This document shows positions 3,501 through 21,500 of a stretch of 35,074 nucleotides of DNA, in pieces. Position 1 is the stretch's first letter. The number at the start of each line of letters is the position of its first letter. The stretch lies in NCBI RefSeq assembly GCF_003585965.1, contig NZ_NRJF01000063.1:1-35074 (forward strand). The letters are read 5' to 3'. The notes beneath the pieces were generated by a model. The model had not been told where the DNA came from. It searched no databases and saw only the letters and a list, made by a program, of their open reading frames with translations. The DNA comes from Psittacicella gerlachiana (GTDB lineage Bacteria; Pseudomonadota; Gammaproteobacteria; Enterobacterales; Psittacicellaceae). Made by a program: the position numbers and the translations under genes.

Positions 3501-3739
3501 GAGCGGTTTTGTTTGTATTCTGCGTAAATTTCATTACGGAAGGTTCCACCTTTAGGATCAAATACGACCACCACATTAGTAGGAAATACCTTACCGATAT
3601 AAGAATTAATTGAAGTTATAGTTCCAGATAATGCAGAAGTATCATGGAAATTAGAATTTAAAAAATAATTAAAATTGGCATGATAGTTACGGAAAATTAT
3701 TGCCGTACCATCAATAACATAAAGAAACTTGTCGCTCAT
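539..3739 (-). CDS. polA: DNA polymerase I
   Basis: DNA polymerase I (1066 aa) carries out Okazaki-fragment processing and repair synthesis. The N-terminal 5' nuclease domain (about 1-300) shows VIDGTA (D10), the YEADD acidic cluster, ESKDKDF and the helix-hairpin-helix-like GDSIDNIPGVKGVGEKTA. The C-terminal polymerase domain (about 690-1066) has motif A DYSQIELR (D near 842), motif B RQIAKAINFGLNYG and motif C QVHDELVF (H1020, D1021, E1022). The middle region, where the 3'-5' proofreading domain belongs, is poorly conserved: I cannot find the DxE, NLKYD or YxxxD motifs of the DEDD exonuclease. A Ser/Thr/Lys-rich linker at about 355-405 adds length compared with the roughly 930 aa of E. coli PolA. 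No clear Shine-Dalgarno precedes the ATG. The gene is transcribed alone, divergent from the glycosyltransferase operon, and ends at a strong terminator. Confidence 0.97.
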   Translation of the reverse strand: MSDKFLYVIDGTAIIFRNYHANFNYFLNSNFHDTSALSGTITSINSYIGKVFPTNVVVVFDPKGGTFRNEIYAEYKQNRSRPDEQLLWQLERIPELLEAMGFPVYIVPGYEADDVIGTIAKYHSAQGVEVLIESKDKDFVQLIDKNISLADTLNDSLYDYKNGDRKFGVPIERTIDFLAICGDSIDNIPGVKGVGEKTASGLINTYGGIEQIYQAIDEDRFTEQVGNLKPQTLAKKMLASRENAFLSYKLATINTHVPMENIELDHMLMRQPNVTKVLELLEEYELFSIRNSFVEGKLSCLNYDLQALKQEVEAYLEKHSFKTRKQSLRLSKLDIKNLTVEQAKEIYTTGLLPDGTPLMAASSGKRKVTAEKSTEESTTASSKATYQATAEDKELLKETRAFSGKFTEFAQDVTTSPLLMIDPFDFSEQEVILGFSAEQLSKEEIYSEHPELANLKEKFYHKFKELLIASPLLEVLKQAKQVSLILEKNTIHKTPVVLNILLESGEKQAVVEGGEPEYKQRQLFSLEFAKAQIFLNRIKHDEFVTLAYFAFKQAFAELVFKPLLAQEQIPVLTADLKDLAHEFNLSVAEVNAVGANVHDLRLVGYTRNSGIKDNSLVNLAKEFCKLEFAPIKYLKTKVDLESIYQSCQQATMFMPLFYRLATSTLNSPLYQKMEQPLWKYLYTMETNGILVDIANLESIVADLQEEIKQAEQDIYQAAGMEFNPNSPKQTADVLYNHLLLTDPTGKGSTAAEVLTQLDHPVIAHILNYRSLTTILASHVIPLIELAQSSKDQKIHTTFLQTQTVTGRLSSQDPNLQNVPAVANIAKRIRASFIAPPGYKMVSLDYSQIELRVSASLSQDEHMLEAFNHGEDIHARTASKLFNVPVEEVERSQRQIAKAINFGLNYGKTAFSLATELGISRQQASAYINEYFATYPKIKDFITQTIDKAMGRGFAQTIYGRIIPLPYIFSGVRSLVESEKRNATNYPIQGSASEIIKLAMIEIQKEITSCMPEVISHLQVHDELVFSIPETLVEKYVAQIKQVMETSVSLPGVKLKVEASIGSHWTK

Positions 3740-4006: not shown

Positions 4007-6322
4007 ATGCATAAATTTTTGCAAACCCCTTTAACTTCATCCTTACCTAAATTTGTCTTAGGTACAAACCCTTTATTCTCGGTACAACCTTTTAATGAAG
4101 AGTTCACTTCCTTTACCGAATTTAAAGCTCAATTACTTGAGCAAGATTGGTATTTCTTTCAAATCTTACTCCGCTTAAGTTTTATTATTGATCGTAAATA
4201 TCCACAACAACTTAAACTACAACAAGAGCAATTAACCCCTACACAAATTTTGTATGTGGAATACTGGGATCAAATGGCAAAATTTTTAATCCAAGCCTAT
4301 GCTCCAATTACTCCTAGTTTAAAAGAACAAATCCAAACCCATAATCTCAAACAACAACTTAAACTTGACCGCTTAAATCGTTATCAACTCGCTGATTTTA
4401 TCAACCAAGCTACGCTTGATCCTGAAATCTTACCTCAAGAGCTTAGTGCTAAAGTCCGTCAGCGTTTATATCTCCTCCTCGCAACTTGCTTTTACTTAGA
4501 AGCACCGAAAAACCAATTAACTCTTGCTCAATTAGAGCAAGCAGTGACCGTACGTTTGCTCAATAACTATCTCTTGCAAGTAGTTGCAAAAAAAGAACCT
4601 GCAACTAACGCAGAGCAAGAGCAACTACCTAAAAAGCAAACCCTAGCAGAACAATGGGTACTCGTAGCAAGTAGCAATCTGAGTTTAACGCCAGATTGGC
4701 CTCAACGTCTAGAAGTAATTCTCGAAGCTCTAGAAGGACGAAAACAAGTTTTTTCTCACGCTTCTTTACACCAAGCTCAAGAAGAGCTTAACTCATGTGG
4801 TAATGAGCTCAAAAGTCTTTGGCGTTGTCAACAGCAATATCAACAACAGTACCTCCTAGCTCTTGAAAGCTACAGCTCTCAACTGCAAGATTTACCAGGA
4901 CTTGAAAGTCTAACCACTCCTCAAGCCCAAGCTTTAGCTGATCGTCTTTGTCGTACTGCGGTAATTGCTTTGGATAACTCTTTAGAATTAGAGGCGAATT
5001 TTAAGGCAAATACGGGACTCGATTTTGTTCCTGAGCAAAGCCTCAAAATTAATCTCAGCAAGAGTAAAATTGCCTATCCACAATTAGCAGACAATTTAAA
5101 TTCGCAACAACTAAACTTTTTACAAAGCTTTATTCCAAGTTGCCAAGGACTTTATTTAGTTAATCTCCAAGCTCTTGTTACTCTCAAATTGCAAGAAGCT
5201 CAAGCTAATACTCAAGCTTATGGTGTGTATGCTCAAGTAGCCCAAAAACATTTATCTAAACTTGTACAAAAGATTAATAAAACCTCAAGTAACTATCAAC
5301 TAGGTTTCCCTTATGCTTCACCAAGTTTAGATCCTTTTGCTTTTGCCTCTTTAGCTACCAACCAAACCTTGATTTTTGCTCAAGCTCAACCAAGCTTAGG
5401 ACAAGTTATCAACGACAACTTAGCAGTACAAACCCGAGAGCAAATTGCCCTCTATCATAATCAACTTGCTTCTTATAATTTTTCAGGGAACTATGTAGGG
5501 CGAGGCTATGACTATCTTGCAACTATGAAGCACTTAGTGTTGAGCTATATACCCTCTTCGTATACCAAATTAGATCTGTACAATCAATTAAGCTCTCAAG
5601 ATCTCAATAGCTATTTTAGTGTAAACTCTCAAGCTCAGACTAATCCTTTAGCCGTAGGCTCTTTTTATAAACAACCGCATACGGTAAACTTTGTTCCTCA
5701 AGCCTTAGCTCCACAATTAATGCGAGAGTCACAAATTCTTGCTGGTAACTTCTTTACCCGTGCTAGTCTGCTTGCACTCTTTAAGCAATTAAATCAACAG
5801 AGAGATACCTTAGCTCATGACTACTTATTAATTACTCAAAGTAGTACTCGTTTCCAAGCTAATTGGTACGGAATGGTAAATCAGCAACTTAGCAAGATCT
5901 TTACCCAAGACCTTCCTGCTCTTATTGTTTTAGGCGGACAAGGTCTAGAGTCAGAGATTCGAGCTTCACAAGTAGACGCTTTTCTTGTTCTCAAAGCGGC
6001 TCTCCCTAAACTCATTTCCGAGTTAGAAGCGCAAACTACCAGTGATCCTCTCTTAAATGCCTATGTGCTTCCGGAGCTGGTAAGTAAAGAAAGAATTTAT
6101 CCTCAAGCTCCAATTGAGCTCGTAGATATTCAACAACCTCAAAGCTCTGAGTTAATTACCCAAGAAATTTCTTTAACTAATTCCCAATTTAAACTTCTCG
6201 CAACTAACTTACAACTAACTCCAAAACAATTAAAACAATTTGTTGTTAGTGAACGTAAAGAGCAAAAGCTCACTGCTTATAAGTTTAATTTTTCACAACT
6301 AATTTCAGCAAACCAAAAATAA
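4007..6322 (+). CDS. Degenerate two-module GT25-like protein
   Basis: This 771-aa protein has no signal peptide or membrane segment and is probably cytoplasmic. Direct similarity to glycosyltransferase family 25 is weak; the assignment rests on its alignment with the three following paralogues. Module A (about 1-475) has KFVLGTN near 15-21, EQWVLVASSN (215-224) followed by PDWPQRLEVIL, and GLYLVNLQAL, matching the family order KFVINL / DDWVLIxEDD / GAYLIRKSAL. Module B starts near GYDYLATMKHLVL (500-512) and has DYLLITQSST (605-614) followed by NWYGMVNQQL. Both modules have lost the acidic EDD triplet (ASSN and TQSS instead), so catalysis is doubtful. The protein stops where its paralogues continue into modules C and D. 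It is rich in Gln. It is first in the operon, without an obvious Shine-Dalgarno, and may be a non-catalytic partner. Confidence 0.75.
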   Translation: MHKFLQTPLTSSLPKFVLGTNPLFSVQPFNEEFTSFTEFKAQLLEQDWYFFQILLRLSFIIDRKYPQQLKLQQEQLTPTQILYVEYWDQMAKFLIQAYAPITPSLKEQIQTHNLKQQLKLDRLNRYQLADFINQATLDPEILPQELSAKVRQRLYLLLATCFYLEAPKNQLTLAQLEQAVTVRLLNNYLLQVVAKKEPATNAEQEQLPKKQTLAEQWVLVASSNLSLTPDWPQRLEVILEALEGRKQVFSHASLHQAQEELNSCGNELKSLWRCQQQYQQQYLLALESYSSQLQDLPGLESLTTPQAQALADRLCRTAVIALDNSLELEANFKANTGLDFVPEQSLKINLSKSKIAYPQLADNLNSQQLNFLQSFIPSCQGLYLVNLQALVTLKLQEAQANTQAYGVYAQVAQKHLSKLVQKINKTSSNYQLGFPYASPSLDPFAFASLATNQTLIFAQAQPSLGQVINDNLAVQTREQIALYHNQLASYNFSGNYVGRGYDYLATMKHLVLSYIPSSYTKLDLYNQLSSQDLNSYFSVNSQAQTNPLAVGSFYKQPHTVNFVPQALAPQLMRESQILAGNFFTRASLLALFKQLNQQRDTLAHDYLLITQSSTRFQANWYGMVNQQLSKIFTQDLPALIVLGGQGLESEIRASQVDAFLVLKAALPKLISELEAQTTSDPLLNAYVLPELVSKERIYPQAPIELVDIQQPQSSELITQEISLTNSQFKLLATNLQLTPKQLKQFVVSERKEQKLTAYKFNFSQLISANQK

Positions 6323-6351
6323 GTTTAACTTAATAGGTTTAAGATAAAGTT

Positions 6352-9300
6352 ATGGCAAAACTTCCCCTCTTTAATTCGATTCCTAAGTTTGCCCTTGTAA
6401 TGCCTACAGGCAGTCAAACCCAGGAAGCATTTTTCGCTCAACCTTTTGCCCAACTTTTTACTAAAGTAAGTGGATTTGATCTGCCTAGCTACTTAGTAAA
6501 GTTAGGGAAAATTACTCAAGAGATGGCAAATGAATATCCTTGTGAGACTAAATTTGACCTCTTAGATGAGTTTCTTTATAACCCTAAAAGTATTCATACG
6601 CCTTTTCTTGATGCTTTAGCACCTTATTTTGATGTCCGCAAGATGCGTGATACTTATGATTTAAGCTTACCACGCCGTTTTGTAAGCATTGCTGATATTA
6701 ACGAAGCTGTAAGTTTAATAAATCTTCTAGCCCATATTTGTCTTGATGAAAGTATTGCTGACGATCAATGGGTACTAATTGCCAATAATGAAATTATTCT
6801 TAGCCCTGAATGGCCGCAAAGAATTGAAGCTTTATTAACCAATTTAATTCCTTATAACCGTAATCTTGCCTCTTATGTAACTCCGGCATACCGCGAAGAG
6901 ATTACCGCAAGCTTTAGTCAACAACAACTTAACGATCTCTCACGCTTAAAATTTATCTTTCTAAGTATTGAAGGCAATAAAAACCTCTCTCACTTAGATG
7001 AGACGCAAAAAGATGCCTTAAAAGTTTATCCAAGTTATAGCATTCGTAACGACATAAGTTCACTGACGGATAACATAGAATCACCTTATGGGATTCAAGA
7101 GTTAGAACTGTCTAATGTATTTAATTATCATCGCTCGGGAATGATGTTAATTAATAAGTTTGCTCTCTTAACCACCGTAAAACTTTGGGCAAAAAATAAA
7201 ATTCGTGAAATTAACTACGGTAAAATTCACAATATTGTTTCGAGTGAAGCTTCTATGATCGCTTGTTACCAAAAAGAGATTAGTGCTAAAGAAGTTTTAG
7301 ATCTCGAACTTAAAGATCAATACTTACAAAGAGATAAATACCCAGCAGACATTCTCGAAGGAGCAGACGCAGCGGGGAAAGACTATGGTAAGCTCGTTCC
7401 TCTTGAGCAAAGTGTTTCCTTTTTTAAAGATTCTTTACATAAAATCTTTAATTTTACAACCATGTCGGTAGCCTATGCCAATCCATTTCTTGGCATTCAA
7501 GCCTATGCTAATGGCTCGCATGAACTTACCGATCAAGACTATGTAAACATTGCAAACCAACAAGGAAAAGCGGTAGTTTTTAATTCCCATTTAGATAGAT
7601 ATACAGCTCAGGGATATGACTTTGTCCAACCTTTACGTAAATACGTTTTACAAGGTAAAAGCCACTTACACAAGTTCTCAACTTTCTTTGCTCAACGTAA
7701 TACTCAAGGCTTTATTCCTGTTACGACCCCAAAACTCGAAGAGTGGACACAAGATCAAGTTGAAAAAGCTTATTTCTACTTTGCAAGATTTGCTAATGGT
7801 ACACATCATTTACCAAACTTAACTGCAGCCGCTCAAACACTCGCTCAAAGACGTCTGATTCGTGAGATTCTTGCAGATCCGACTATTGACGAGAGTGAAT
7901 GGATAGTTTTTGCCAAGGATCAAACTATTTTCCGTCCTGATTGGTATAAAAAACTCAATCAGTTTATGCGTTGGTTAACCATCCGTTACCCTTTAGCAAA
8001 AATTATTATTGCCGGCAACGAAAATCCTGACGCAGGGTTTAATTTTATTGATGATCCTGATCCGCAAAAGCGTCTTGAACTCTTTACCCAGCAATCAATT
8101 ATTACTCCAGAATTAAGTTGGACTTGTCGCCTTGATCAAGATCTAGAAGCTATAGTAGCTAGTTCATTTAAATACTTAAGTTACTCTTTAGTCCTTGTAC
8201 GTAAACGAGCTTTACATGAACGCCTTAGTGCCGATGATTACTTAAATGCTCGTAGCTTCTATCTCGATCGCTTTGCAGATTTAATTAACTTTAATGCGAC
8301 TAATGTGATTTTTACTAATCCAAGTTTAGCTATTTACCATAACCAAGAACAAATCCATGATCTACAACTCCCGCAACTACAAGAAGATAGTAGTTTAGGT
8401 AAAAAAGAAGCTCAGGATCTCACCAATTTGGTAAATGTAAGTGATATGCAAGAGCAAGGGGCGGATTTACCTTGGCAAAGCCAAGAAGTCTACCGTCAAG
8501 CAGTAACAGCTCCCCAAGCGATCATAGAACCGCAAGTGTACAACCAAGAAAGTGGTGAAATAATTAATCCTCTTGAACGCATTAATACAATTCAGGCTCA
8601 AGAACAATTAGATTTAACTCCTTTTAGTTCGCAACAGGCCCAAAAAATTGCTCAAGAGCAACCTTTATTCTTTGGTCAAGAAAAACCAATTAAAGAATAC
8701 TTTGAGCAATTAGAACCAAGCGAACTTGAAAACTGTTATAAATCGAGTCCGAAATTAAATCCTGAACTCCACTACCTTAAAGCGGGAGCTTTACCTGACT
8801 TAGTCGCTAAAGTTAAAAAATATGTAATTAACTTACCGCAATCGCAAGATCGCTTACAAGCGTTTATGCGTCAAAATAATGTCGAAGACTTTATGGTGCA
8901 TCAGGCAGTTTGGGGTAAGGATCTGAGCGAAGAGGATATAAATGAACTCTTTGATCGCGAGAAATACAATGAACGTTATCACCGTACCATGCATGCGGGA
9001 GAGTATGGTTGCTCTTTAAGCCATACGCAAATTCTACGTAAAGCTTTATATGATACTGAATTAGGCATTGATGATTGGATTTTAATTATTGAAGATGATA
9101 CTCGTCTTAATCCCGACTGGTATCAAATGCTCAATAAGGTTCTACTTTATGTAGAACAAGAACTTCCAAATCGGGTAGAAATTATTAATGGAGCCCAAAA
9201 TCAAATTCCTAATTTTGATCTCATAGCTCCAAAACGCTTTGTGGGTTACCACAGTATTTACTCGCAATTAAATAATTACCATCAAATTACTCCGGAGTTA

Positions 9301-10263
9301 GGGATTACTTTAATTAACCGAGATTTCCCTGCGGGAGCTGGTTTCTATTTAATCCGTAAAAGTCTGTTAGTAAAAAACCACCAACGTATTTGCAGTAAAA
9401 TTGACTGGGTTGCTGATGATATAGCTCAATACTATACTTTCCGTCCGGAAATCTTTGCTTATGTTAACCCACAACTGGGCTTTGATGATCGTGATTTAGA
9501 GTCAATTCTTGATCATGAACGTATTGCAAGTATTAATGCCGAAAAAATTAAACTACGTTCGGTAGCAGTAACCAATCCTTCTGCTTATGTCACTCGTGAA
9601 AGATTGCATGTGATTCAAAAAACCTTAAGTCTTGAGGAAATTAACCAAAAATTCCCGCACTTTAATGTAATTAAAAAAGAAGACTATGCAAGCTTACCAC
9701 GCAACGAGCAAGAAAAACTATTTGATTTTGCTAAGTTCAAGCAAACCTATGGGCGTGAGATTACTCCAGAAGAACTTAATCTTACTCTAACTCACCATAA
9801 GGCTTGGTGCTATATCCGTGATTTAGGTGTTTCTGATTTTACGTTCCATTTTATTGTCGAAGACGATCAAACCCTAGCTCCAGACTTTTTACATCAATTA
9901 AATTGTATTAGTGAATATATTGATACAAGATTAGATTTAGATACTCTCTTAATTCAAACGAGCAATAGCAAGCAAGAACAGAACTTTGAGCTCTTAGAGG
10001 AAAAGGATTATCCACAACATGGTATTCATATAGGTGAGAATCCAGTGTACTCGATTAATGAGCAACAAACCGTAGCCATTATTAACCGTAAAGTCAGCAA
10101 TGGTTCCGGTTCTTACCTCATGCTCAAATTTACCCCTTCACATATGCATTTATTCTTATCTGAAGGTAAACGCTACTTCCTTGCCGAGGACTATGTATTT
10201 GGCATGCCATTTACCAAAAAATCTATTGCTTTTGCTCAACCTCAAGTATCAATTAAACCATAA
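6352..10263 (+). CDS. Four-module GT25 family glycosyltransferase (paralogue 2)
   Basis: This 1303-aa protein is probably a cytoplasmic transferase acting on a surface glycan; donor and acceptor cannot be read from sequence. Modules A (about 1-420; DDQWVLIANNE, 140-147 region) and B (about 420-700; ESEWIVFAKDQ, 514-524) lack the EDD motif. A Gln/Glu-rich linker (about 700-815) leads to module C, a full GT25 domain: KKYVINLPQSQDRLQAF (822 on), GKDLSEEDI, GEYGCSLSH (883-891), DDWILIIEDD (E914, D915, D916), GAGFYLIRKSLL (995 on) and DWVADD (1018-1023). Module D (about 1085-1303) keeps VEDD (1169-1172) but replaces the GC.LSH element with LTLTH. The family includes LPS galactosyltransferases and collagen galactosyltransferases. 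The gene starts 29 bp after its upstream neighbour, with a weak purine stretch as ribosome site. Confidence 0.87.
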   Translation: MAKLPLFNSIPKFALVMPTGSQTQEAFFAQPFAQLFTKVSGFDLPSYLVKLGKITQEMANEYPCETKFDLLDEFLYNPKSIHTPFLDALAPYFDVRKMRDTYDLSLPRRFVSIADINEAVSLINLLAHICLDESIADDQWVLIANNEIILSPEWPQRIEALLTNLIPYNRNLASYVTPAYREEITASFSQQQLNDLSRLKFIFLSIEGNKNLSHLDETQKDALKVYPSYSIRNDISSLTDNIESPYGIQELELSNVFNYHRSGMMLINKFALLTTVKLWAKNKIREINYGKIHNIVSSEASMIACYQKEISAKEVLDLELKDQYLQRDKYPADILEGADAAGKDYGKLVPLEQSVSFFKDSLHKIFNFTTMSVAYANPFLGIQAYANGSHELTDQDYVNIANQQGKAVVFNSHLDRYTAQGYDFVQPLRKYVLQGKSHLHKFSTFFAQRNTQGFIPVTTPKLEEWTQDQVEKAYFYFARFANGTHHLPNLTAAAQTLAQRRLIREILADPTIDESEWIVFAKDQTIFRPDWYKKLNQFMRWLTIRYPLAKIIIAGNENPDAGFNFIDDPDPQKRLELFTQQSIITPELSWTCRLDQDLEAIVASSFKYLSYSLVLVRKRALHERLSADDYLNARSFYLDRFADLINFNATNVIFTNPSLAIYHNQEQIHDLQLPQLQEDSSLGKKEAQDLTNLVNVSDMQEQGADLPWQSQEVYRQAVTAPQAIIEPQVYNQESGEIINPLERINTIQAQEQLDLTPFSSQQAQKIAQEQPLFFGQEKPIKEYFEQLEPSELENCYKSSPKLNPELHYLKAGALPDLVAKVKKYVINLPQSQDRLQAFMRQNNVEDFMVHQAVWGKDLSEEDINELFDREKYNERYHRTMHAGEYGCSLSHTQILRKALYDTELGIDDWILIIEDDTRLNPDWYQMLNKVLLYVEQELPNRVEIINGAQNQIPNFDLIAPKRFVGYHSIYSQLNNYHQITPELGITLINRDFPAGAGFYLIRKSLLVKNHQRICSKIDWVADDIAQYYTFRPEIFAYVNPQLGFDDRDLESILDHERIASINAEKIKLRSVAVTNPSAYVTRERLHVIQKTLSLEEINQKFPHFNVIKKEDYASLPRNEQEKLFDFAKFKQTYGREITPEELNLTLTHHKAWCYIRDLGVSDFTFHFIVEDDQTLAPDFLHQLNCISEYIDTRLDLDTLLIQTSNSKQEQNFELLEEKDYPQHGIHIGENPVYSINEQQTVAIINRKVSNGSGSYLMLKFTPSHMHLFLSEGKRYFLAEDYVFGMPFTKKSIAFAQPQVSIKP
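8797..9576 (+). other. Canonical GT25 module C of paralogue 2
   Basis: This stretch encodes about residues 816-1075. It contains, in order, the INLPQSQDR donor-side loop, the GEYGCSLSH motif, the IIEDD acidic triplet, a GAGFYLIRK strand and DWVADD. This is the full motif order of glycosyltransferase family 25. Boundaries are approximate. Confidence 0.75.
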
Positions 10264-10274
10264 CTTAAATTTCT

Positions 10275-13200
10275 ATGTTTCAATTAGCTCGTAGTTACTT
10301 GTTAACTAATATTCATAATAATTCTGCACGTAATTTAAGTTTAAAACAACCTTATGCTCAGGAGTTTACTGAGCATAAGGCTTTAACCTATAACGAGGCA
10401 GAATTAGAACAACGCTTTAATACCCAAAGTTATCTACAAGAATTTGGTGAGCAAGATGTATCCCCTAAAGCTTTGAATCAAATTCTCGCTCATCTCGATT
10501 TACAGCTCGTAATTGCTCAAGACTCTAGTCTTGACGATGATGACTTTGTCCTCATAGTCCAAGAAGGAACTTTACTCGCAAGTAACTGGCAAGAGCAAAT
10601 TGCAGATAGCTTACAGGCTGCAGCCAATAACCACATTCTTAAAGAACGCCTCAATGCTATAAGTTTAGGAGATAGCAAAGAATTAACTTTTAATTATTTT
10701 TCTCGTGCTACTCTTGAGACCCGTCGTAAAATTGTTGCGGGAGAACATAACTACCTCAACTTACGTGGTTGTGACTTTACCAAAAAACGTTTAGAGCTCT
10801 TACCACAATTTACTAAATACCTCGAGGACAAGTCTCCTCTAACCCAAAACTTAGCTTATAAATCTAGAGTTTTTAATAATCAAGGGAAACAATTAACTGC
10901 AACTAATGAACACCCTTTTAGCCAAACTCCTTTTACTTCTTTAACCAATATTAATGAACCTTTAGAGTTAGTTTGTGTTTCTCAGCTACCACTACATGAG
11001 CCGGTAGCTTACCTCATGCGTGTAAAGGCAATTCGTGAATATATCAATAAGCTTTGTCTTGATCCCCAAGCTCAAAAACAACAACTGCAAGTACTTAAAG
11101 AAGCCCAAGCTAAATTTCAAGGGCTAGCTCAAACTCAAGATCTTCTCACCAAAGTAGCTTCAGTATGGCATCAGCCTTTAGCTTGGAATATGTCCATGTG
11201 GCATCAGCTCTTTGAGTTTAATGTAGGTTCAATTGCGATTACCAACCCAAGTATTGCCGTAAGTAATTTCCGCTATGGCAACTTTGTTCTTACTCTAGAT
11301 TCTTTAAGTCTTGTAAGCTGGATGCAAACACACCAAATTCAAGCAGGTAAAGCTAGCCTCGGTTATGACTATGTAACCTCAATGCCAAAATTTGTGATGT
11401 TTAAAGCTGATCACGCTTATAGCTTGCAACAGTTTTATAACAATAGTCAAACTACCAACTTTATGCCTCTCATGTTGGACTCACCAAGTGCAAGTAGTCA
11501 ACATAGTCTGAGCTTAGGTTGGAGTAGAATCTTCTCAGATCTCAGTAACAATAGTCATATTTACAATAGTGAAAGCTTAAGTCAAACGCTAGCTCTCTAT
11601 CGAGTATTCCAAGCAGTTCTTGCCAATCCGCAAATTGGTGAACAAGACTACTTTATTGTTGCAAATAGCTTTGTGAGTCTTGATCCCGATTGGCAAACTC
11701 GTCTAAATCAAAGCCTCGCTTATTTAGCAGGAGGAGCCCCAAATAATCTTATTCTCCTTGGCGATACGGTAGGAGCAAAAAATCTAGATTATCAAGCACC
11801 AAACCTCTATGAACAAGGAGGACAGGCTTTTGCTTCCAATGTACATTTTTATGTGCAACCAGACTTTGCTAACCTCTATAATCAAAATGAATACTTTGCC
11901 CAAAGTTTACAATCTTTAATTAAGCTCTCAAATAAAAACTTTTCTTTCTTGATCTTAAATAAAGGTTTAATTAAGAGTTATGTGCAAAGATTACGTGAAG
12001 AATTAGGAGAATTAACTTCTGAGCGTCTTGAAAAAACTTGGTTTAGTGCTCAAGAAAATCTCCAAACAGGTCTTTCAGATTATGATCCAGAAAATATCGA
12101 GCAACTTATAGCTCCGCTTAAAGAGGATCCTTTATACAAACTTTTATTCCTTGAAGATAACTTATCGCATCGAGAAATTAAAGAAAATAATCCCGAACTG
12201 CTCAAGGATATTCTCTTCCACGAGCAGCTAAAAAACTTTAGTCAAGAAGGATCTACAGAGAGTGAACATTTACAAGAATTTTGGTTAGAAAGTTTACTCA
12301 AAACTCTAGCTAAAGTAAGAGCAAAAACTCAAGATAAACTCTTTAGTAATAAAGAGCAACTCAAAGCCTTAATTGATCTTGAGCAATTAAATGACTGGCA
12401 AATTCTTACGCTTGCGGCTCCTTTATTTGAAATAAACTATAGTCGTCTTAGTTGGTATCTTGACTTTACCAGTCACTCAATTATTCAGGTTAATCCGCCT
12501 TTAGCGCAGGCTCTAGATACCGATCCTACAGCAAAAATTATTAATGAAGAGCAGTTTGGTTTTAGTGAATATCAAAATTTACGTTCTAATCGCCAAAAAC
12601 AACGTCTTCTCACTTATTTAGATAATAACCAAGAACAATACCCTGATTATCTAAGTAAAGTTCGTAAATTCGTTATTAGCTTGCCCCAATCGAAAGATCG
12701 TCTTCAAGCTTTTAAAGCTCAAACTCATGCTCAAGATTTTGAACTCTTTCCCGCAGTTTATGGTAAAGAATTAAGCGAACAAGAAATTTCTTCACGTTTT
12801 GATAGTAAGCGTTTTTATAATACTTATGAACGTATTATGACCCTAGGAGAAATAGGTTGTACACTTTCGCACTGGGAAATCTACCAAAAAGTCTTACAAG
12901 ATCCAAGTATTGCCGATGACGACTGGGTACTTGTCTGTGAAGATGATACGAAGTTCTTTACGAATTGGTACGAACGTACCAATAGTATTCTGCATTATTT
13001 ATACAATAACCCTGAACGTAATACTCAATTTATTCAATGTAGCAATAATATGCTTAACCAAGATCGAGCTTTACCTTATCATAAGCTCAAAGAAATTACT
13101 TATTTCCGTTTTGAAGCCGATGATCTCATTTGCCTCAATCCAAAACAAAGTATTTTCTTCCCTACAGCAGTAGTATCTTATGGTTCAGCTCATTACTTAT

Positions 13201-14243
13201 TTAAGAAATCATTACTAAAAACCAATTTCTTTCAAAATTTAAATCGTCCTTATTGGGTCGCAGATGATTTCCCACGCTTTTTTGAGTATTTACCTGATAC
13301 CTATGTTTATGCTTCACCTATGCTCAGTCACCAAGATAATGACAACTTTACTTCAATTATTGAAGAAGAAAGAACGGTAACCCGTGAAGCTATGCGTAAA
13401 CGTCTCTTAGAGACCGAACTCTATAAACCACTAAACTTCTTAAATAATAAAGTAATTATTATTCAACGTAGTTTAACTGAAGAACAAATTCAAGAAAAAT
13501 TTGCAGATATAAGTCACATTATTAAACGTCAAGAATTTGATAAGCTCAGTGATCAAGAATTAGAAAAATACTATGATCTCGAAGCTTTCCAAGCAAATTA
13601 TCAACGTTTACCAACAAGAGAAGAAATGATTCGTGCAATCATGCACCAAGAAGCTTATCGTTATCTCAATAATCTTATTGATAATGTGCATAATTACTAT
13701 TTAATTCTTGAAGATGATGTGCAACCTGTATCTAAGAGTTCTTTAATCTTTGCTAATCAAGTGGTTAATTACATAGCTACCCGTCTAGATACTCGGACTG
13801 AAGTAATTGAGTTAAGCAATCTCTACTGGAATCAAGCTCTAGAAAAACACCAGCAAGATCCACGTGAGCTTCCAGGACATATAGATCTCGAAGCTCAATT
13901 AGCAAGTCAAGGGCGTAGTGTTGCTACTCTTGAATATGCAGATTTAACACCAAATGAATATGGTTACCTCTTTAGTGATTACCCTATCGAACAAGAGAAC
14001 TTTGCTGATTACTATATTCTTGGTAATGCAAAACAAAACTACCATATTAACTCTTATCTCGATATTCAAATTACCGAGAACCATGCATGTACGGGAGGTA
14101 AAGCTTATTTAATCTTTACTTATCCTTTAAAAACTCAAGATACGGCAAACAAACCTATTGCTTGGTTACATGATGATTTCCCTAAATTTGTCTTCTATCA
14201 CAACCTAGCCTTAGCTTACGCTATGCCTCCACTTTATTTCTAG
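10275..14243 (+). CDS. Four-module GT25 family glycosyltransferase (paralogue 3)
   Basis: This 1322-aa protein has the same A-B-C-D layout as the preceding gene. Module A (about 1-365) has DDDDFVLIVQEG (87-98) and ends with AITNPSIAV. Module B (about 365-775) has the GYDYVTSMPKFVMF junction, QDYFIVANSF (457-466) and IIQVNPPLAQA. Module C (about 790-1050) is canonical: VRKFVISLPQSKDRLQAF (796 on), GEIGCTLSH (858-866), DDDWVLVCEDD (E889, D890, D891) and WVADDFPRFF. Module D (about 1059-1322) has KVIIIQRSLTEEQI, IMHQEAYRYL, LILEDD (E1146, D1147, D1148) and WLHDDFPKF. There is no signal peptide. It begins 11 bp after the previous stop, with no clear Shine-Dalgarno, which suggests translational coupling or a weak start. 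Module C is the best candidate for activity; D is possible. Confidence 0.87.
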   Translation: MFQLARSYLLTNIHNNSARNLSLKQPYAQEFTEHKALTYNEAELEQRFNTQSYLQEFGEQDVSPKALNQILAHLDLQLVIAQDSSLDDDDFVLIVQEGTLLASNWQEQIADSLQAAANNHILKERLNAISLGDSKELTFNYFSRATLETRRKIVAGEHNYLNLRGCDFTKKRLELLPQFTKYLEDKSPLTQNLAYKSRVFNNQGKQLTATNEHPFSQTPFTSLTNINEPLELVCVSQLPLHEPVAYLMRVKAIREYINKLCLDPQAQKQQLQVLKEAQAKFQGLAQTQDLLTKVASVWHQPLAWNMSMWHQLFEFNVGSIAITNPSIAVSNFRYGNFVLTLDSLSLVSWMQTHQIQAGKASLGYDYVTSMPKFVMFKADHAYSLQQFYNNSQTTNFMPLMLDSPSASSQHSLSLGWSRIFSDLSNNSHIYNSESLSQTLALYRVFQAVLANPQIGEQDYFIVANSFVSLDPDWQTRLNQSLAYLAGGAPNNLILLGDTVGAKNLDYQAPNLYEQGGQAFASNVHFYVQPDFANLYNQNEYFAQSLQSLIKLSNKNFSFLILNKGLIKSYVQRLREELGELTSERLEKTWFSAQENLQTGLSDYDPENIEQLIAPLKEDPLYKLLFLEDNLSHREIKENNPELLKDILFHEQLKNFSQEGSTESEHLQEFWLESLLKTLAKVRAKTQDKLFSNKEQLKALIDLEQLNDWQILTLAAPLFEINYSRLSWYLDFTSHSIIQVNPPLAQALDTDPTAKIINEEQFGFSEYQNLRSNRQKQRLLTYLDNNQEQYPDYLSKVRKFVISLPQSKDRLQAFKAQTHAQDFELFPAVYGKELSEQEISSRFDSKRFYNTYERIMTLGEIGCTLSHWEIYQKVLQDPSIADDDWVLVCEDDTKFFTNWYERTNSILHYLYNNPERNTQFIQCSNNMLNQDRALPYHKLKEITYFRFEADDLICLNPKQSIFFPTAVVSYGSAHYLFKKSLLKTNFFQNLNRPYWVADDFPRFFEYLPDTYVYASPMLSHQDNDNFTSIIEEERTVTREAMRKRLLETELYKPLNFLNNKVIIIQRSLTEEQIQEKFADISHIIKRQEFDKLSDQELEKYYDLEAFQANYQRLPTREEMIRAIMHQEAYRYLNNLIDNVHNYYLILEDDVQPVSKSSLIFANQVVNYIATRLDTRTEVIELSNLYWNQALEKHQQDPRELPGHIDLEAQLASQGRSVATLEYADLTPNEYGYLFSDYPIEQENFADYYILGNAKQNYHINSYLDIQITENHACTGGKAYLIFTYPLKTQDTANKPIAWLHDDFPKFVFYHNLALAYAMPPLYF
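12642..13424 (+). other. Canonical GT25 module C of paralogue 3
   Basis: This stretch encodes about residues 790-1050, with ISLPQSKDR, GEIGCTLSH, VCEDD, a HYLFKKSLL strand and WVADDFPRFF. Boundaries are approximate. Confidence 0.75.
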
Positions 14244-14254
14244 GATAACTTTGT

Positions 14255-17200
14255 ATGCATGAATTTATTTCCCGTGCTTATTTACTCAAGGATTTAAATG
14301 GTGCAGCTGCCAATGCTCTAAGTGCTCGTCAAACCCATAGCGAGTACTTAGAACCCTTTGCTGCCGTAAACCTTGCTAACCTCGAGCCAGCACGTCAAGA
14401 ACTCCTAGTTGATCGTCAAGCTTATACTGACTTTTATCAACTCGAAGGTCAACTACGTGAAGCCAAACTAAATCGAGCTTTAAGCCATTTACGTTTATGG
14501 CAACAAGTATATTATGATCCTGCAGTTGCGGATAACTCTTGGATTCTCGTGGTCGAAAGTGGCGTTTCTCTTGCTCACGATTGGTTACGCCGTGCTCGTC
14601 TCATTGCGGAGCAATTACATGCTACCGATTTACAAGCAATTAGCTTGACCAATGACAATATTGATGACTTTGCGGCTCATGAACAAGATTTAGAAGAGGT
14701 TGCGGTATTTCATAATCATAATTATGTTTACACAATTAACGATCCGGTAAATCACCTGCTAGCCTCTGCTCAACTTCCGGTAGCCCCACAAGTAAGCGAA
14801 CAAAAAGTGTATGCTACCCGTACGATTCAAATGACTGGTTCAGGAGCCTACTTAATTCGTAAAAGCGCCTTAAGCAAGATTATTGCTCGTACTCTTGATA
14901 TTACCGAAGTAATTACTTGTAGCCCTGAACGCTTAGCTCAGCTCCAACAACAAGCAAAAACTCCAATTAGTTGGAATGCTGAAAGCTGGCACGAAGTTTT
15001 TCGTTATCGTCAAAACACCCATGCCTATGCCGTACCTGTACTTGGAGTTGAGGTTTTTAATCCTGTAAGTGCTCAAAGTAGCTTTACTCCTGAAGCAGTT
15101 GTAAAAAACCTTGTTACTTACAGTCAATGGCAACTAAATGCTTTAAGTGTTGAGCAAGCTAAAGAGCAACTTCACACCTTAGAGCAACACCAAGCTCAGC
15201 TTAATCCTGAGCAACAAATGTTACTCAGCCAAGCAGCGAACCTAGCTAAACCGGCGATTACCGGAGATAGCTATCTCCAAGGGATGGGCAGTAACTTTTT
15301 ACAAAAAGTACGTAAATACTTATTAACTGATCCCGGCTACTATAGTTGGCAAACCCAAGACTTTAGTAGTAGATTTTTTGCTCAAGAAGGCACAAGTGAT
15401 TTTAGGATTCAGCGTTTACCGCAAAATACCGATGAACAATATTTAAAATTTTTAAATTTCCATCGTTTATCTTTTGCTCCTTTAAAAGTTCCGCATCACT
15501 TACCACTTAATGAGTATCGCTATAACTATGCTTGGGGACAACTTATTGCCCAAGTGCTTACCGATCCAACTTTGAGTGACAACGACTGGATTATGGTGTG
15601 CGAAGACAATCAACTCTTTACTCCTGATTGGCAACGCAAACTCAATCATTACCTTGAAGTACTCTTAACCAGTCAAGTGCAAGCAAGTTACTTAATTCTT
15701 GCCAATCACCAAGCTAAGGATTTTCGTCGCTTAGAGAGAAAAACTCTTGAAGAGCTCAAAATTATTCCTGCCGAACAGGAACTAACTTGGTCGAGTTCAC
15801 GTCTTGAGCCTTTACATTTATTAGGAGCTTCTCAAGCTTTAGCTCAAATTAGCTATCAAAAAGAACAACAACTGGCTTTAACTTATAGTGACCATAAAAA
15901 AGTTACTAATACTCTAGCTAACTTTAGTTCTACTGACGATAAGCTCTATCTTGCGGCTAATGAACAACTAGGAGGAAGTTTAAATCTCCCTCCAGAACTC
16001 CAAGAGGCTGTAGGTGTCCCTAAAGAGCAACTCTCAGCCGAACTTGCCAAGCTTGTAGATCTCTATTGGCAAATTACCGATATAGATGTAACCTTACTTA
16101 AACCTCAAACCTTTAAACTTGGGCAACAAGAAATTACTCGTCCTTTCTTTGATTTAAGTCTAGAAGAACAAGCGTATCCTTTAGCTCAAAATGGGGTAGA
16201 GAACTTTAAGCATTTGGCTAATGTACAAGATTTTGCTCAAATTAAAGCAAGAGTAGCTAATTTTAGTCAAGACAATACCCAACAGGCAAGTCCAAGCTTT
16301 GTGAAGTTTTATCAACAAATTAACCAAGCTTTTACAAGCCATAAACGAGATCATAACCAAGCAAATCTCAATCGAGAACTGCTCAGAGATTATGCTCAAG
16401 GTTTCCAAGCTCAGCCAAGTTATCTTTTTACTTCGCAAAATCCTCTTGCGAGCACCAAAAAAGAAATTAATGCAGTTTGGCCTACAGCTCTCAGTTTAGA
16501 TCAGGGTAACTACTTAGTTAGCGATTGGCAACCTCAAGCCTATCAAGCTTTAGATTTAAACTATTATTATCACCATCGTTATCCTAATGTAATGCTCAAT
16601 GTCGGAGCTTTACGTCGTAAAGCAGCCCAACAAGCATTTAATCCTTACCGTATTAACGCTAAGTCTTTAGTTAATCTTATCGACTTTAATGTAGGAACAA
16701 CTTTCTATGCAAATCCAGGCTTTAGTATTACTAATAGTCTCATTACTAAAGCTAGTGAGCAGGCTTTACAAAAAGTCTTTGATCCTCTAAGACCTCATAG
16801 CCAAAACAGTCGTCTCCTCTTAAATCGTAACCTCCAACAGCAACATCTTGATAGCACTCAAGATCAAGTAAGTAGCTTACCTGCTTTTCTGATTAACTTA
16901 GAAAAAGATAAGGAACGCTTACACCGCATGGAGTTACAAGTAGGAAGTGAGTTCTTTAAAGTGGTTAAAGCCGTATATGGACGTGATTATAGTGATGAGC
17001 AATTAGAGCAAATGTTCGATATCCAACGCTATGAGCAAGAAACTAACAAACTTGCTACCCCAAGCGAAATCGGCTGTACTCTCTCCCATTGTAAGATCTA
17101 CCTTGAGATTCTTGAAGATCCAAACATTGATGATCAAGATTGGGTGTTAATTACCGAAGACGATTGTCTGTTTGCTCCACAATGGCGTGAACGCTTAAAT

Positions 17201-18358
17201 GAGATGCTAAGTTATCTGCGTACTCCTTATGCACAAGATTTAAGTATTGTTTTTCTTGGTCATACTTACTTTAAAAACTTTAAGTTACAGTCAAATCAAG
17301 AGTTTAGTAATACTACTTATCTCTATCCAGATAATACTTTTGCTCTCTATGTTTCAGGACAACAAAAGTTACATCCGCTTGTAGGTTTCTTACCCGCAGC
17401 TTCGTTTTGTTACTTAATTCGTAAAGGTGCATTACGCACCCATGCTCAAGACTTTAAACGTCCATTTTGGGTTGCTGATCACTTTACCTATTTTGTGCCG
17501 TTTACTCCAAGTGCTTATGCAATGGCAAATCCGCCTCTAACCATTCATAATTTGGATTTAGAATCAAATATTGCTGAGGATCGTGCTCATGCGGAAATCA
17601 CCATGCGTACTAAACTCAAACAAGTACCTATTGGCTGGCATGAAGTTAGAGACTTTTTAAAGCAAAACAAGTTTGTGCTACAAACAAGTTTAACTACTGC
17701 TGAAATTGAAGAGAAGTTCCCAGGCTTTACCATAATTCCTCCATTTGACTATCATAGTCTGAGCGAACAAGAATTCAATGCTCGCTATGATCGTCAAGGA
17801 TTTATTGAACATTATGGCTATGAACCTAGTGATGAAGATATTAATCGAGCTTTACAACACCAAGAGGTATATCGCCTCTTAGCTGATCAAGCTCTCAATA
17901 TCTTTGAGTTTGCACTAATTGTCGAAGATAATGTGGTAATTAATCCAAACATTGACTTAGTTAAATATGCAAACTTATACCTCAAATATGTAGATACCCG
18001 CTTAATCTTACAACATCGTCTTGTAAGTTTTAGCAATCTCTACAACCCACATCCTTTTATTCCACTCACAGCTGAGGAAGAAGAGGCAAGCTATATTTAT
18101 CGTCATAATGAACCAGGTACCTTATGTCCTGGCTACTCCTTAATTGAAGTTAAAGCAAAAACTACTACGGGAGCAAGTGCTTATATGGTAATTAATTTAA
18201 ATATTATTGCCGACCAAGCTCACTCACGCCGTGTAAGTTGGTTATATGATGATTTCCCACGTATTTTTAACTTTAGATTAGGAAACTTCTCTTATAGTAA
18301 TCCTTGTTTGGTCGCAACTCCGGAACAAAACCTCGCTACAGAAAAAGACGAGGTCTAA
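14255..18358 (+). CDS. Four-module GT25 family glycosyltransferase (paralogue 4)
   Basis: The last and largest protein of the operon (1367 aa) has the same modular order. Module A (about 1-345) retains ALSHLRLWQQV, NSWILVVESG (94-103) and GSGAYLIRKSAL, so it is the least degenerate A copy. Module B (about 345-840) has VRKYLL, DNDWIMVCEDN (E450, D451, N452) and YANPGFSI, the only B copy that still has ED. Module C (about 870-1125) is canonical: AFLINLEKDKERL (877 on), SEIGCTLSH (937-945), DQDWVLITEDD (E968, D969, D970), FCYLIRKGAL and WVADHF. Module D (about 1139-1367) has LQHQEVYRLL, LIVEDN (E1224, D1225, N1226), SAYMVI and WLYDDFPRIF. It follows the previous stop by 11 bp, with a TAGGATAA ribosome-site-like stretch. 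A strong terminator lies about 120 bp downstream. Confidence 0.87.
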   Translation: MHEFISRAYLLKDLNGAAANALSARQTHSEYLEPFAAVNLANLEPARQELLVDRQAYTDFYQLEGQLREAKLNRALSHLRLWQQVYYDPAVADNSWILVVESGVSLAHDWLRRARLIAEQLHATDLQAISLTNDNIDDFAAHEQDLEEVAVFHNHNYVYTINDPVNHLLASAQLPVAPQVSEQKVYATRTIQMTGSGAYLIRKSALSKIIARTLDITEVITCSPERLAQLQQQAKTPISWNAESWHEVFRYRQNTHAYAVPVLGVEVFNPVSAQSSFTPEAVVKNLVTYSQWQLNALSVEQAKEQLHTLEQHQAQLNPEQQMLLSQAANLAKPAITGDSYLQGMGSNFLQKVRKYLLTDPGYYSWQTQDFSSRFFAQEGTSDFRIQRLPQNTDEQYLKFLNFHRLSFAPLKVPHHLPLNEYRYNYAWGQLIAQVLTDPTLSDNDWIMVCEDNQLFTPDWQRKLNHYLEVLLTSQVQASYLILANHQAKDFRRLERKTLEELKIIPAEQELTWSSSRLEPLHLLGASQALAQISYQKEQQLALTYSDHKKVTNTLANFSSTDDKLYLAANEQLGGSLNLPPELQEAVGVPKEQLSAELAKLVDLYWQITDIDVTLLKPQTFKLGQQEITRPFFDLSLEEQAYPLAQNGVENFKHLANVQDFAQIKARVANFSQDNTQQASPSFVKFYQQINQAFTSHKRDHNQANLNRELLRDYAQGFQAQPSYLFTSQNPLASTKKEINAVWPTALSLDQGNYLVSDWQPQAYQALDLNYYYHHRYPNVMLNVGALRRKAAQQAFNPYRINAKSLVNLIDFNVGTTFYANPGFSITNSLITKASEQALQKVFDPLRPHSQNSRLLLNRNLQQQHLDSTQDQVSSLPAFLINLEKDKERLHRMELQVGSEFFKVVKAVYGRDYSDEQLEQMFDIQRYEQETNKLATPSEIGCTLSHCKIYLEILEDPNIDDQDWVLITEDDCLFAPQWRERLNEMLSYLRTPYAQDLSIVFLGHTYFKNFKLQSNQEFSNTTYLYPDNTFALYVSGQQKLHPLVGFLPAASFCYLIRKGALRTHAQDFKRPFWVADHFTYFVPFTPSAYAMANPPLTIHNLDLESNIAEDRAHAEITMRTKLKQVPIGWHEVRDFLKQNKFVLQTSLTTAEIEEKFPGFTIIPPFDYHSLSEQEFNARYDRQGFIEHYGYEPSDEDINRALQHQEVYRLLADQALNIFEFALIVEDNVVINPNIDLVKYANLYLKYVDTRLILQHRLVSFSNLYNPHPFIPLTAEEEEASYIYRHNEPGTLCPGYSLIEVKAKTTTGASAYMVINLNIIADQAHSRRVSWLYDDFPRIFNFRLGNFSYSNPCLVATPEQNLATEKDEV
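16862..17629 (+). other. Canonical GT25 module C of paralogue 4
   Basis: This stretch encodes about residues 870-1125, with INLEKDKERL, SEIGCTLSH, ITEDD, FCYLIRKGAL and WVADHF. It differs from the other C modules in the Lys/Glu-rich KDKER loop where they have PQSxDR. Boundaries are approximate. Confidence 0.75.
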
Positions 18359-18478: not shown

Positions 18479-18511
18479 AAACTCCTAAAGCTTAGCTTTG
18501 GGAGTTTTTTT
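18479..18511 (+). terminator. Terminator of the glycosyltransferase operon
   Basis: A near-perfect stem of AAACTCC-T-AAAGC (18479-18491) and GCTTT-G-GGAGTTT (18495-18507), with one T-G wobble and a 3-nt loop, is followed by a run of T up to 18511. It lies about 120 bp after the last operon gene and points rightwards. Confidence 0.88.
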
Positions 18512-18572: not shown

Positions 18573-21500
18573 CTATAAATCATGAACTAAAGTGAAAGGA
18601 TGAATTACACCACTCCACTCGGGAATTAATTTTACTTGGCTATACCAAGCCTCTGATGTTTCTCCAAGACTATAAACTTCAAGATTTAAAAGTTTTGACG
18701 TAACTTGAGGAAACACCGTCCATAAAGCCGCCGGAAGAATTTTGCTAATTTCTCCTTGTACCCCTAAATAAGTAGTTAACTCTTGTTCGGGAGTACTTAA
18801 GTAGAGATCATAACCTTGTTCTTGTCCTTTAATAAAAATTTGCATTTTTCCTATATGACAAAGCTTAAAATCTAACGGAGCTTGATAATGGGTATAAGGT
18901 AAGTGACAAGAAGCTACAGTAAAATTCCGCATAAACTCTTGCCTTAAAATTGTCGCTCGACTTTGTTCGACAATTAAGTCTTCCCATTCTTGATTATGTA
19001 GCTTAGCTTGAATCGCTCGGAGTAAAAGCTGATTTATCGTCCCAACACTATTACCATTTAGCTTATTTAAAGAAATACTTGGTAAAGCTTGTGGTTGAGT
19101 GTGTTTACGTAAGTAACGGATTAAATTAGCTAAAGCTTGTCTTCCGGTAAAACGTATATTACGATAAGTACCAACCCGAGTAATATATACTAAACTTAAA
19201 TAATCAATAAACTCTCCACTAATCCCCACTAAATTGCTTCCTAATTTTTCTAAACTATTTTTTAAGCCACTTAAATTATTAGCTTTAAGGGATGGTAAAT
19301 ATTTCACAAAAATGTAAGCAGTCGCAATTTGTTCCTCTTCTTCGAGATAGGCAAGGGTAAAAATGCGTGAGAGATGACTAAAGGTAGATACCACAGGAGA
19401 AGCATTCTCTAAAGTACTTGGCATTAACAATTCATCTAAATCGCTTTCTGGCTCTCGAGTTAGGGTTAGCTTTTGTTCTTGCCCTTGCTTACCTTGAGCC
19501 AAACTTATCTTCTCAGTAGAGTTACTTTCTAGCTTGGAGTTATTTTCATTCTCAAATTTACTTGGGGTTAGAGTCCCAACACTATGGGCATGATTTAGAA
19601 GATGATTTGCGATCTCTAGTCGACGATTGCGTACTAAATTGGTTACTTTAAGCTCAACTTGAGTATAGCGTTTTACCACCTCTAAATCTGAACATTCTTC
19701 TCCCAAGTAGCTTCCAAGATTTTGAGCCACGGAAATTAATTGCTTACCGCTTAAACTTGGGTTAATCACAATGCGATTCATTAAACCATAACATTGTTGT
19801 TGATGTACTAAAGGATAGACTTCAATTACCTGAGTAGATTCTGTTTCCGAGCTTACTTGATCCACAAAAGAATTGCTTACTTGGTAACTATGAATGGTTT
19901 TAAAATCAAAATTATCATCAACGACCAGAGGACGAGGTGAGTTGCCACCTAACATACTTAGATACATTTCTAAACGCTCTTCAGTTTCTGTTTGAGATTT
20001 TAGAGCTAAAGCATGATTAGAAGCGTCATAATGCACCGCTTTGGTTAAGGCTTGTAAACAATCATCTTGTTGCAATTGCGCTTGAGTTTTTTGATCAAGT
20101 AATACTGTAATCTCCATAATCCCCGTTCCAGCTCCCACAAATCTTGGTAAGACTTGTGGAAGTAAGGAGTTAGAATCTTCAGCATCAATAAAATCTAACT
20201 CTAATCTCTGTTCTAAAACATAAGCAACTTTTTTGCCCAGTTCGAGAACAAGATGATCATCGGTGAGGTAATGCAGATTTTGATGATAAACTTGAATTTG
20301 CTCAGTACCTGTAATACCTATTTTTACTTGTGCATAATATAGATTACCCAAATAATTTATATAATCTCGATTTCCAAGATTAGCCGTGAGGAAGTTATTT
20401 AGCACAAAAAGCAAAATGCTTGGATCATAATTAAACCAATGCAAGTTACCGCGTACGGGCAAGATTAAATCTTCTTTAGCAATTACTTGTAACTTAGGTT
20501 TAACCGGAGCTTGAGGTTGTAAACTATGATATTTCTTTTGTGTTCCTAAACTATAGCACCTATAGCTTCCTTTAAAATTAACCGCTTGAGGCTTAACTTT
20601 AGCTTGAACTAATAACTCCTGGTAAAGAGGAAAATATCCGTTGGATATATAGCTAAGTCCTCGATCTTGCCACCTTGCTTGCGAAAAGCCTTTAGCTTTT
20701 AACTCTTTTTCTATCTCTTGATTGGCAACCAAAGCAATTACTTGGTGCTGGTTCAGCAATGGTTGTTGCGGACGCCAAACATAAGTTCGAGGTTGCAATA
20801 CTTGAGCTAAATCTACCTGGGCATCTTGGGCTAAACTTCTTAAAACCTCTAGTCCCGGATGCTCGGTTAAAATATAAAAGGATGCAAAAGAAAGATTTTC
20901 ATGATCTAGAACCTGAAATCTATGCCTCTGCTCGGCTAATTCTTCAAGATTTACCTTATAATTCGCCTCTGATTCAAGCTTATCTTTACCGAGAGTAACA
21001 CTTGGAGGTTGGATAGCCAACATTTTTCCAAGTGTACGATCAAGAGAAGCCACACGAGATTTAGCTTTAACCAGCACTTGATCCAAAAATCTGTTTTCCG
21101 AATCAGCTGAAGCTACGGCTGTATAGCTCAAATGTTTTTGGAGCTGATCTACAGTTTGCAAATCTATAGTAACAAAATTACTTTCACCATTACCCTTTTG
21201 CGGACCATGTGAAATTAACTCAGGTTGAGACCAAAGAATATCCGTATTTTGATTTAACACGTCAACACTAAGTTCGTGCTCCTCAGTTACTTTAGCAACT
21301 CTAGATTTATTAAACTTAGTTGCTAAAAAATGAGCAATTTTAGTTTTTTGTTCAGGGTTAGCTTCTACTTGCCAAGTTAAACTCGCTAAAAAAGCTAACT
21401 CTTTGGCAAAGGTTCTCTCTACTAAGGCTTGAACTCCAAGGCAAGCTTGCTGTACTACTCTTGTTATTGAGGCTGATCTTAAACGTAAAATTTTTACGGT

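Follow-up and report, generated by a model that had tools for sequence, protein, structure and literature searches.

Bacterial GT25 glycosyltransferases (PF01755), among them LOS hexosyltransferases, are mostly single-domain proteins with one module each, and a bacterial GT25 structure has been deposited as a beta-1,4-galactosyltransferase (PDB 8xc8/8xlz). A longer chain is known from human COLGALT1 (GLT25D1), a eukaryotic ER protein acting on collagen, in which a GT25 domain is joined to a second GT-A domain and which has an inactive paralogue, CERCAM (CEECAM1) (PMC3244457). COSMC has a glycosyltransferase fold without DxD and xED and is kept as the partner of T-synthase (PMC7185993), and CHSY3-CHPF likewise pairs a pseudo-glycosyltransferase with an active GT-A enzyme. 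The chondroitin polymerase of E. coli (PDB 2z86/2z87) contains two GT-A modules in one chain.

We analyzed a stretch of 35,074 nucleotides (the window) from the bird-associated genus Psittacicella (Psittacicellaceae, Pasteurellales); sequence comparison gave P. melopsittaci and P. hinzii as named relatives. It contains an operon of four adjacent genes that encode 14 homologous GT25-type modules in the arrangement 2+4+4+4 (Table 1). The new element is that four GT25 copies are present per chain in a four-gene operon and that their position in the chain separates the intact ones from the eroded ones. Module C has the fold and the motifs of the bacterial single-domain enzymes, but the Psittacicella proteins hold up to four modules instead of one. 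COLGALT1 was the best structural match to our models and likewise has joined domains and an inactive paralogue, although it has two glycosyltransferase domains rather than four GT25 modules. The apparently dead modules can be likened to the partners in COSMC/T-synthase and CHSY3-CHPF, which, however, belong to different families and are separate subunits, and a partnership of the Psittacicella proteins would be putative. The E. coli chondroitin polymerase can serve as a model for modules C and D, but it belongs to the GT2 family and has two modules, both of them active. In view of the two-domain chain of COLGALT1 and the known dead GT-A partners, the parts of the Psittacicella system are thus familiar. 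As copies of a single fold that are intact, half-intact, or dead occur side by side in orthologous series from four species, the operon represents a natural experiment on the role of pseudo-glycosyltransferase domains and on the route from a single LOS transferase to a multi-module machine.

The spacers between the four genes are, in order, 29, 11, and 11 bases long, and the position of the operon between polA and cyaA was common to all four Psittacicella genomes searched, with orthologue identities of ~25-63% across the four species. NCBIfam matched no family for genes 1-4, no signal peptide or transmembrane segment was apparent in their products, and no LOS gene adjoins the operon within the window.

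Table 1. Coordinates of the operon, its modules, and other features mentioned in the text. Positions refer to the window unless a locus is named.
Feature	Position	Strand	Remarks
polA	539-3739	-	one flank of the operon
Gene 1 (P0001, 771 aa)	4007-6322	+	ORF list; no C or D module
Gene 1, module A core	4631-5197	+	diverged; no scored catalytic motif
Gene 1, module B core	5765-5941	+	diverged; no scored catalytic motif
Gene 2 (P0002, 1303 aa)	6352-10263	+	A-B-C-D; ORF list and module profile
Gene 2, module A	6379-7500	+	without GE.GC..SH; EDD not conserved; xED-like pair lost
Gene 2, module B	7633-8340	+	KDQ replaces EDD, LDR replaces ADD; predicted GT25 fold
Gene 2, module C	8812-9489	+	intact GT25: R, GEYGCSLSH, EDD, ADD
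Gene 2, module D	9616-10254	+	GT25: EDD and AED; N-terminal Arg lost
Gene 3 (P0003, 1322 aa)	10275-14243	+	A-B-C-D; ORF list and module profile
Gene 3, module A	10290-11267	+	QEG replaces EDD; WN...WH replaces W.ADD
Gene 3, module B, first part	11382-11996	+	long insert precedes last strands
Gene 3, module C	12660-13337	+	intact GT25: R, GEIGCTLSH, EDD, ADD
Gene 3, module D	13488-14234	+	EDD and HDD kept; N-terminal Arg lost
Gene 4 (P0004, 1367 aa)	14255-18358	+	A-B-C-D; ORF list and module profile
Gene 4, module A	14273-15052	+	ESG replaces EDD; WN...WH replaces W.ADD
Gene 4, module B, first part	15308-15883	+	
Gene 4, module B, last strands	16304-16735	+	past long insert
Gene 4, module C	16877-17551	+	R, SEIGCTLSH, EDD kept; ADH instead of ADD
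Gene 4, module D	17681-18316	+	EDN, YDD; absent in fourth species
Terminator-like hairpin	18479-18507	+	strong, 13 pairs and T tail; closes the operon
cyaA (2003 aa)	18573-24584	-	other flank of the operon
FHA/HMW-type adhesin (1999 aa)	29070-35069	-	
Extra GT25 locus, fourth species	L046 6101-13524		
Weak GT41 match in 659-aa ORF	L078 (G000 contig C301, 6447-6623)		
LpxB (651 aa)	L048 17485-19440		
LpxK (735 aa)	L047 13964-16171		
KdsB	L047 16171-17172; L040 13073-14074		
Second giant protein	L040 4047-9797	-	
Second giant protein	L047 7095-12905; L048 4374-9995; L049 4225-10059		

The original prediction of 14 GT25 module copies was borne out. A profile seeded only from the three C modules of the window matched, untrained (iteration 0), at 14 of the 14 expected places. 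In profile-profile comparisons, the orthologous sets of A, B, and D modules, drawn from three or four species, were related to the C modules with probabilities of 92.5-99.5% (P 5e-7 to 2e-23), and the seven negative controls from neighbouring genes all remained at or below 0.3%. The modules of gene 1 were only partly recognizable, over 81 and 44 aligned columns, and the "2" is therefore the weakest number in 2+4+4+4. The Pfam family GT25 exceeded its curated cut-off in proteins 2, 3, and 4 only (module C in all three, plus D of gene 2), and Pfam gave no match for gene 1. When compared with an independent set of 12 single-domain GT25s, the profiles reached 99.4-99.8% for C, 91-97% for D, 67-96% for A of genes 2-4, and 71-72% for B of genes 2 and 4. 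The remaining modules, namely B of gene 3 and the two of gene 1, scored near zero in this comparison and are connected with GT25 by way of the C modules. A long insert splits B of genes 3 and 4. As had also been predicted, the D modules start similarly (VIQKTLSLEEI, IIQRSLTEEQI, and VLQTSLTTAEI in genes 2, 3, and 4) and contain the elements TRLD, TRLD, and TRLI, respectively. The C modules were said to share GE.GC.LSH and EDD, which held for EDD in all three copies and for the first motif in genes 2 and 3, whereas gene 4 has SE in place of GE.

With respect to the GT25 fold of the A, B, and D regions, we modeled module B of gene 2 from an alignment of 24 module sequences, which gave a pLDDT of 80.5 and a pTM of 0.80, and the first 17 PDB matches of the model were GT25 proteins, namely COLGALT1, R655, and bacterial GT25s, with TM values up to 0.56. 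As the underlying alignment contained A, C, and D rows, the fold of B is supported by this model but not independently proven. A model of residues 1-1090 of gene 2, which comprise A, B, and C, had a mean pLDDT of 55.9 and was confident only in C and part of A, so the arrangement of the modules cannot be read from it. This model also matched GT25 first, over ~245 columns, with COLGALT1 and mimivirus R655 as the best PDB entries, followed by bacterial GT25 galactosyltransferases and other GT-A enzymes, and CHSY3-CHPF was among the weaker fold matches.

To trace the ancestry of the modules, we placed 76 modules of the four species in one tree together with single-domain GT25s. The position labels required 7 changes on this tree, close to the minimum of 5 and far below the mean of 44.8 obtained with shuffled labels. 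All D modules fell into a single clade. At each position, the copies of gene 2, of gene 3, and of gene 4 separated into clades that comprised three or four species each and mostly had strong support; the deeper branching order of A, B, C, and D was weakly supported (64/89). For gene 3, we tested a grouping of the modules by gene, as would result from gene conversion or separate internal duplications; it costs 122 log-likelihood units and was rejected at p-AU 6.3e-7. The position-wise grouping and this rejection indicate that the A-B-C-D protein predates the gene duplication, in agreement with the expectation that a finished four-module protein had been duplicated. The order read from the sequences is thus an A-B-C-D chain, then gene copies, then species. 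An extra GT25 locus of the fourth species, which comprises an A-B-C-D gene and another A-B-C-D unit distributed over two ORFs, again shows A-B-C-D as the copied unit.

Profile searches outside Psittacicella, with D against 369 genomes of the class, A against 395 of the order, and A+B+C against 299 of the phylum, revealed no multi-module homologue and no multi-domain GT25 protein of such size. The matches were nearly all single-module ORFs of ~225-314 aa, and among the 395 genomes of the order, the stronger Pfam GT25 matches, as listed outside the genus, lay in ORFs of 139-455 aa. A 787-aa ORF with a weak D-profile match in one genome (G606) looked spurious; no multi-module GT25 was recognized in the ORFs that we read in that genome, several of them overlapping one another. 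The literature that we searched contained no report of a multi-module GT25 protein or of glycosylation in Psittacicella. The A and C profiles both pointed to the same relative, a single GT25 of ~255-280 aa from one related family. The neighbours of this GT25 in the three loci examined are GT2-like genes and an EpsG-like protein (recognized by eye); one locus also has a GT52, and another a polysaccharide pyruvyl transferase. By its gene order, the locus resembles the lsg locus of H. influenzae, for which lsgC-lsgE have been described (PMC6530457) and from which LsgCDEF have been used for building Gal-GlcNAc-Gal-GlcNAc (PMC7174548), and its GT25 would be the counterpart of lsgC.

The motifs scored in each module were the N-terminal Arg, GE.GC..SH, the metal/nucleotide motif EDD, and the acidic pair of W.ADD. 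On the basis of the alignment, we take the latter, near the module end, to be an xED-like site and carry its presumed role as base over from GT-A enzymes in general, for which the function of xED is known (PMC7185993). Only module C of genes 2 and 3 contained every scored motif, and did so in all four species, with GDD for ADD once. In C of gene 4, three species have ADH with EDD retained, and the fourth has ADN and has lost the Arg, GE.GC, and EDD. The operon copies of A and B have lost almost all scored motifs, including EDD and the acidic pair. Although A, B, and gene 1 have lost the metal and base residues, their ORFs are kept in four species.

The mean pairwise identity between species agreed with this distribution. 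Overall conservation in genes 2 and 3 was highest for C (68% and 59%, respectively), and its motif columns were 94% and 100% identical, respectively, whereas A and B reached 41-48% with little or no excess at their motif columns (44-55%). In gene 4, where C is without the xED-like Asp, this module was conserved no better (42%) than A (43%) and B (44%), as would be expected for a non-catalytic module. The pattern is the one expected if catalysis took place in C of genes 2 and 3 but not in C of gene 4.

The explanation that we favor, with about an even chance of being correct, is that genes 2 and 3 encode catalytic proteins and genes 1 and 4 largely non-catalytic GT25 scaffolds, all acting on the LOS outer core. 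The sequences themselves show the homology of the modules, their ancestry by position, their conservation throughout the genus, and the pattern of retained and missing motifs, whereas we infer the activity, donor, acceptor, and complex formation of these proteins as follows. A single-domain GT25, most like the lsg-type LOS-locus enzyme of the related family, would have multiplied inside one gene of a Psittacicella ancestor to A-B-C-D, and this gene would then have been copied into the operon. Module C of genes 2 and 3 would be a metal-dependent UDP-hexose transferase. A and B, deprived of metal and catalytic-base residues, would be GT25 folds without catalytic function that bind the acceptor or partner proteins, D would be a half-preserved module and possibly a second active site, and gene 4, with its altered C, and gene 1, with A and B only, would provide non-catalytic partners. 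The proteins are predicted to be cytosolic. Their most likely role would be elongation of the LOS outer core, and they may act in a single complex. Of the two functions considered originally, a large scaffold around one active domain thus appears to fit better than a processive machine, given the intact C of genes 2 and 3, with the qualification that D may be active as well.

LOS is favored as the acceptor because the nearest single-module relatives are found in an LOS-type locus and because of the LPS gene set. The genus has lpxB, lpxK, and kdsB, and this genome a GT9 heptosyltransferase, but no match to the Wzy_C/O-antigen ligase family was found in its assembly, which is ~89% complete; this combination fits LOS.

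A clearly lower probability is given to the view that C and D are both active. In this case, genes 2 and 3 would encode bifunctional enzymes that, like two-domain GT-A polymerases, transfer two sugars in turn while A and B hold the acceptor, and D of gene 4 might take part as well. D would seem not to be simply dead, as its operon copies mostly keep EDD and otherwise have EDN. The acidic xED-like pair is also mostly kept, D of gene 2 attains the Pfam cut-off, and the motif columns of D are conserved to 79-86% compared with 52-61% elsewhere in the module. However, the N-terminal Arg is missing from every D, as is GE.GC in the SH motif, and the xED-like residues differ between species (AED, AHD, ASD, HDD, and HGD). 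We consider it unlikely that the four products form one particle of 14 modules of a single fold, in which dead modules hand a glycan under construction from one active C (or D) site to the next; if true, this would be a modular glycan assembly line built solely from GT25 copies.

As members of GT25 also glycosylate proteins, such as human COLGALT1 (PMC3244457), the acceptor is not fixed, and the operon enzymes could modify proteins rather than LOS, for instance the large FHA/HMW-type adhesins of the genus. An adhesin gene with TPS and ESPR elements is present in the same window, and the genome has a weak match to GT41, the HMW1C-type family. We regard this as quite unlikely, since the adhesin gene is ~11 kb away from the operon, past cyaA, a LysR gene, and hflKC, and the nearest single-module relatives are housed in an LOS-type locus. 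The adhesin has an extended signal peptide, a TPS domain, and PTPxEEP-like repeats near its end, and the ORF with the GT41 match encodes a possible N-glycosylation enzyme.

Improbable to much the same degree is that the extra modules are near-neutral baggage in a genus with generally bloated proteins and that C alone matters, which would agree with the lengths of CyaA (2003 aa, profiles ~640-950), LpxB (651 versus 382), and LpxK (735 versus 324) and with the motif columns of A and B, but not with the facts that all modules are open and recognizable in three or four species, that a conserved WN...WH occupies the catalytic-loop place in A of genes 3 and 4, and that gene 1 is retained in 4/4 species without any intact module. 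As several unrelated Psittacicella proteins are also unusually long, size alone may not mean function in the favored scaffold explanation either, and a tendency towards longer proteins may be general in the genus and not peculiar to the operon genes.

CyaA has 1819-1938 residues in the relatives, and CyaA, LpxB, and LpxK each matched their own family in several stretches apart from one another, as would be seen if inserts had enlarged the proteins of this genus. KdsB carries an N-terminal extension of ~50 residues (GLVCP..KQPLY) that resembles a fused YcaR/Trm112-type protein. A second conserved giant protein of ~1870-1945 aa was found in all four genomes. It has a C-terminal GT25 module in which EDD is kept and ASD or AAD is present at the xED-like site, a middle region of ~1000 residues, and two weak N-terminal traces of modules.
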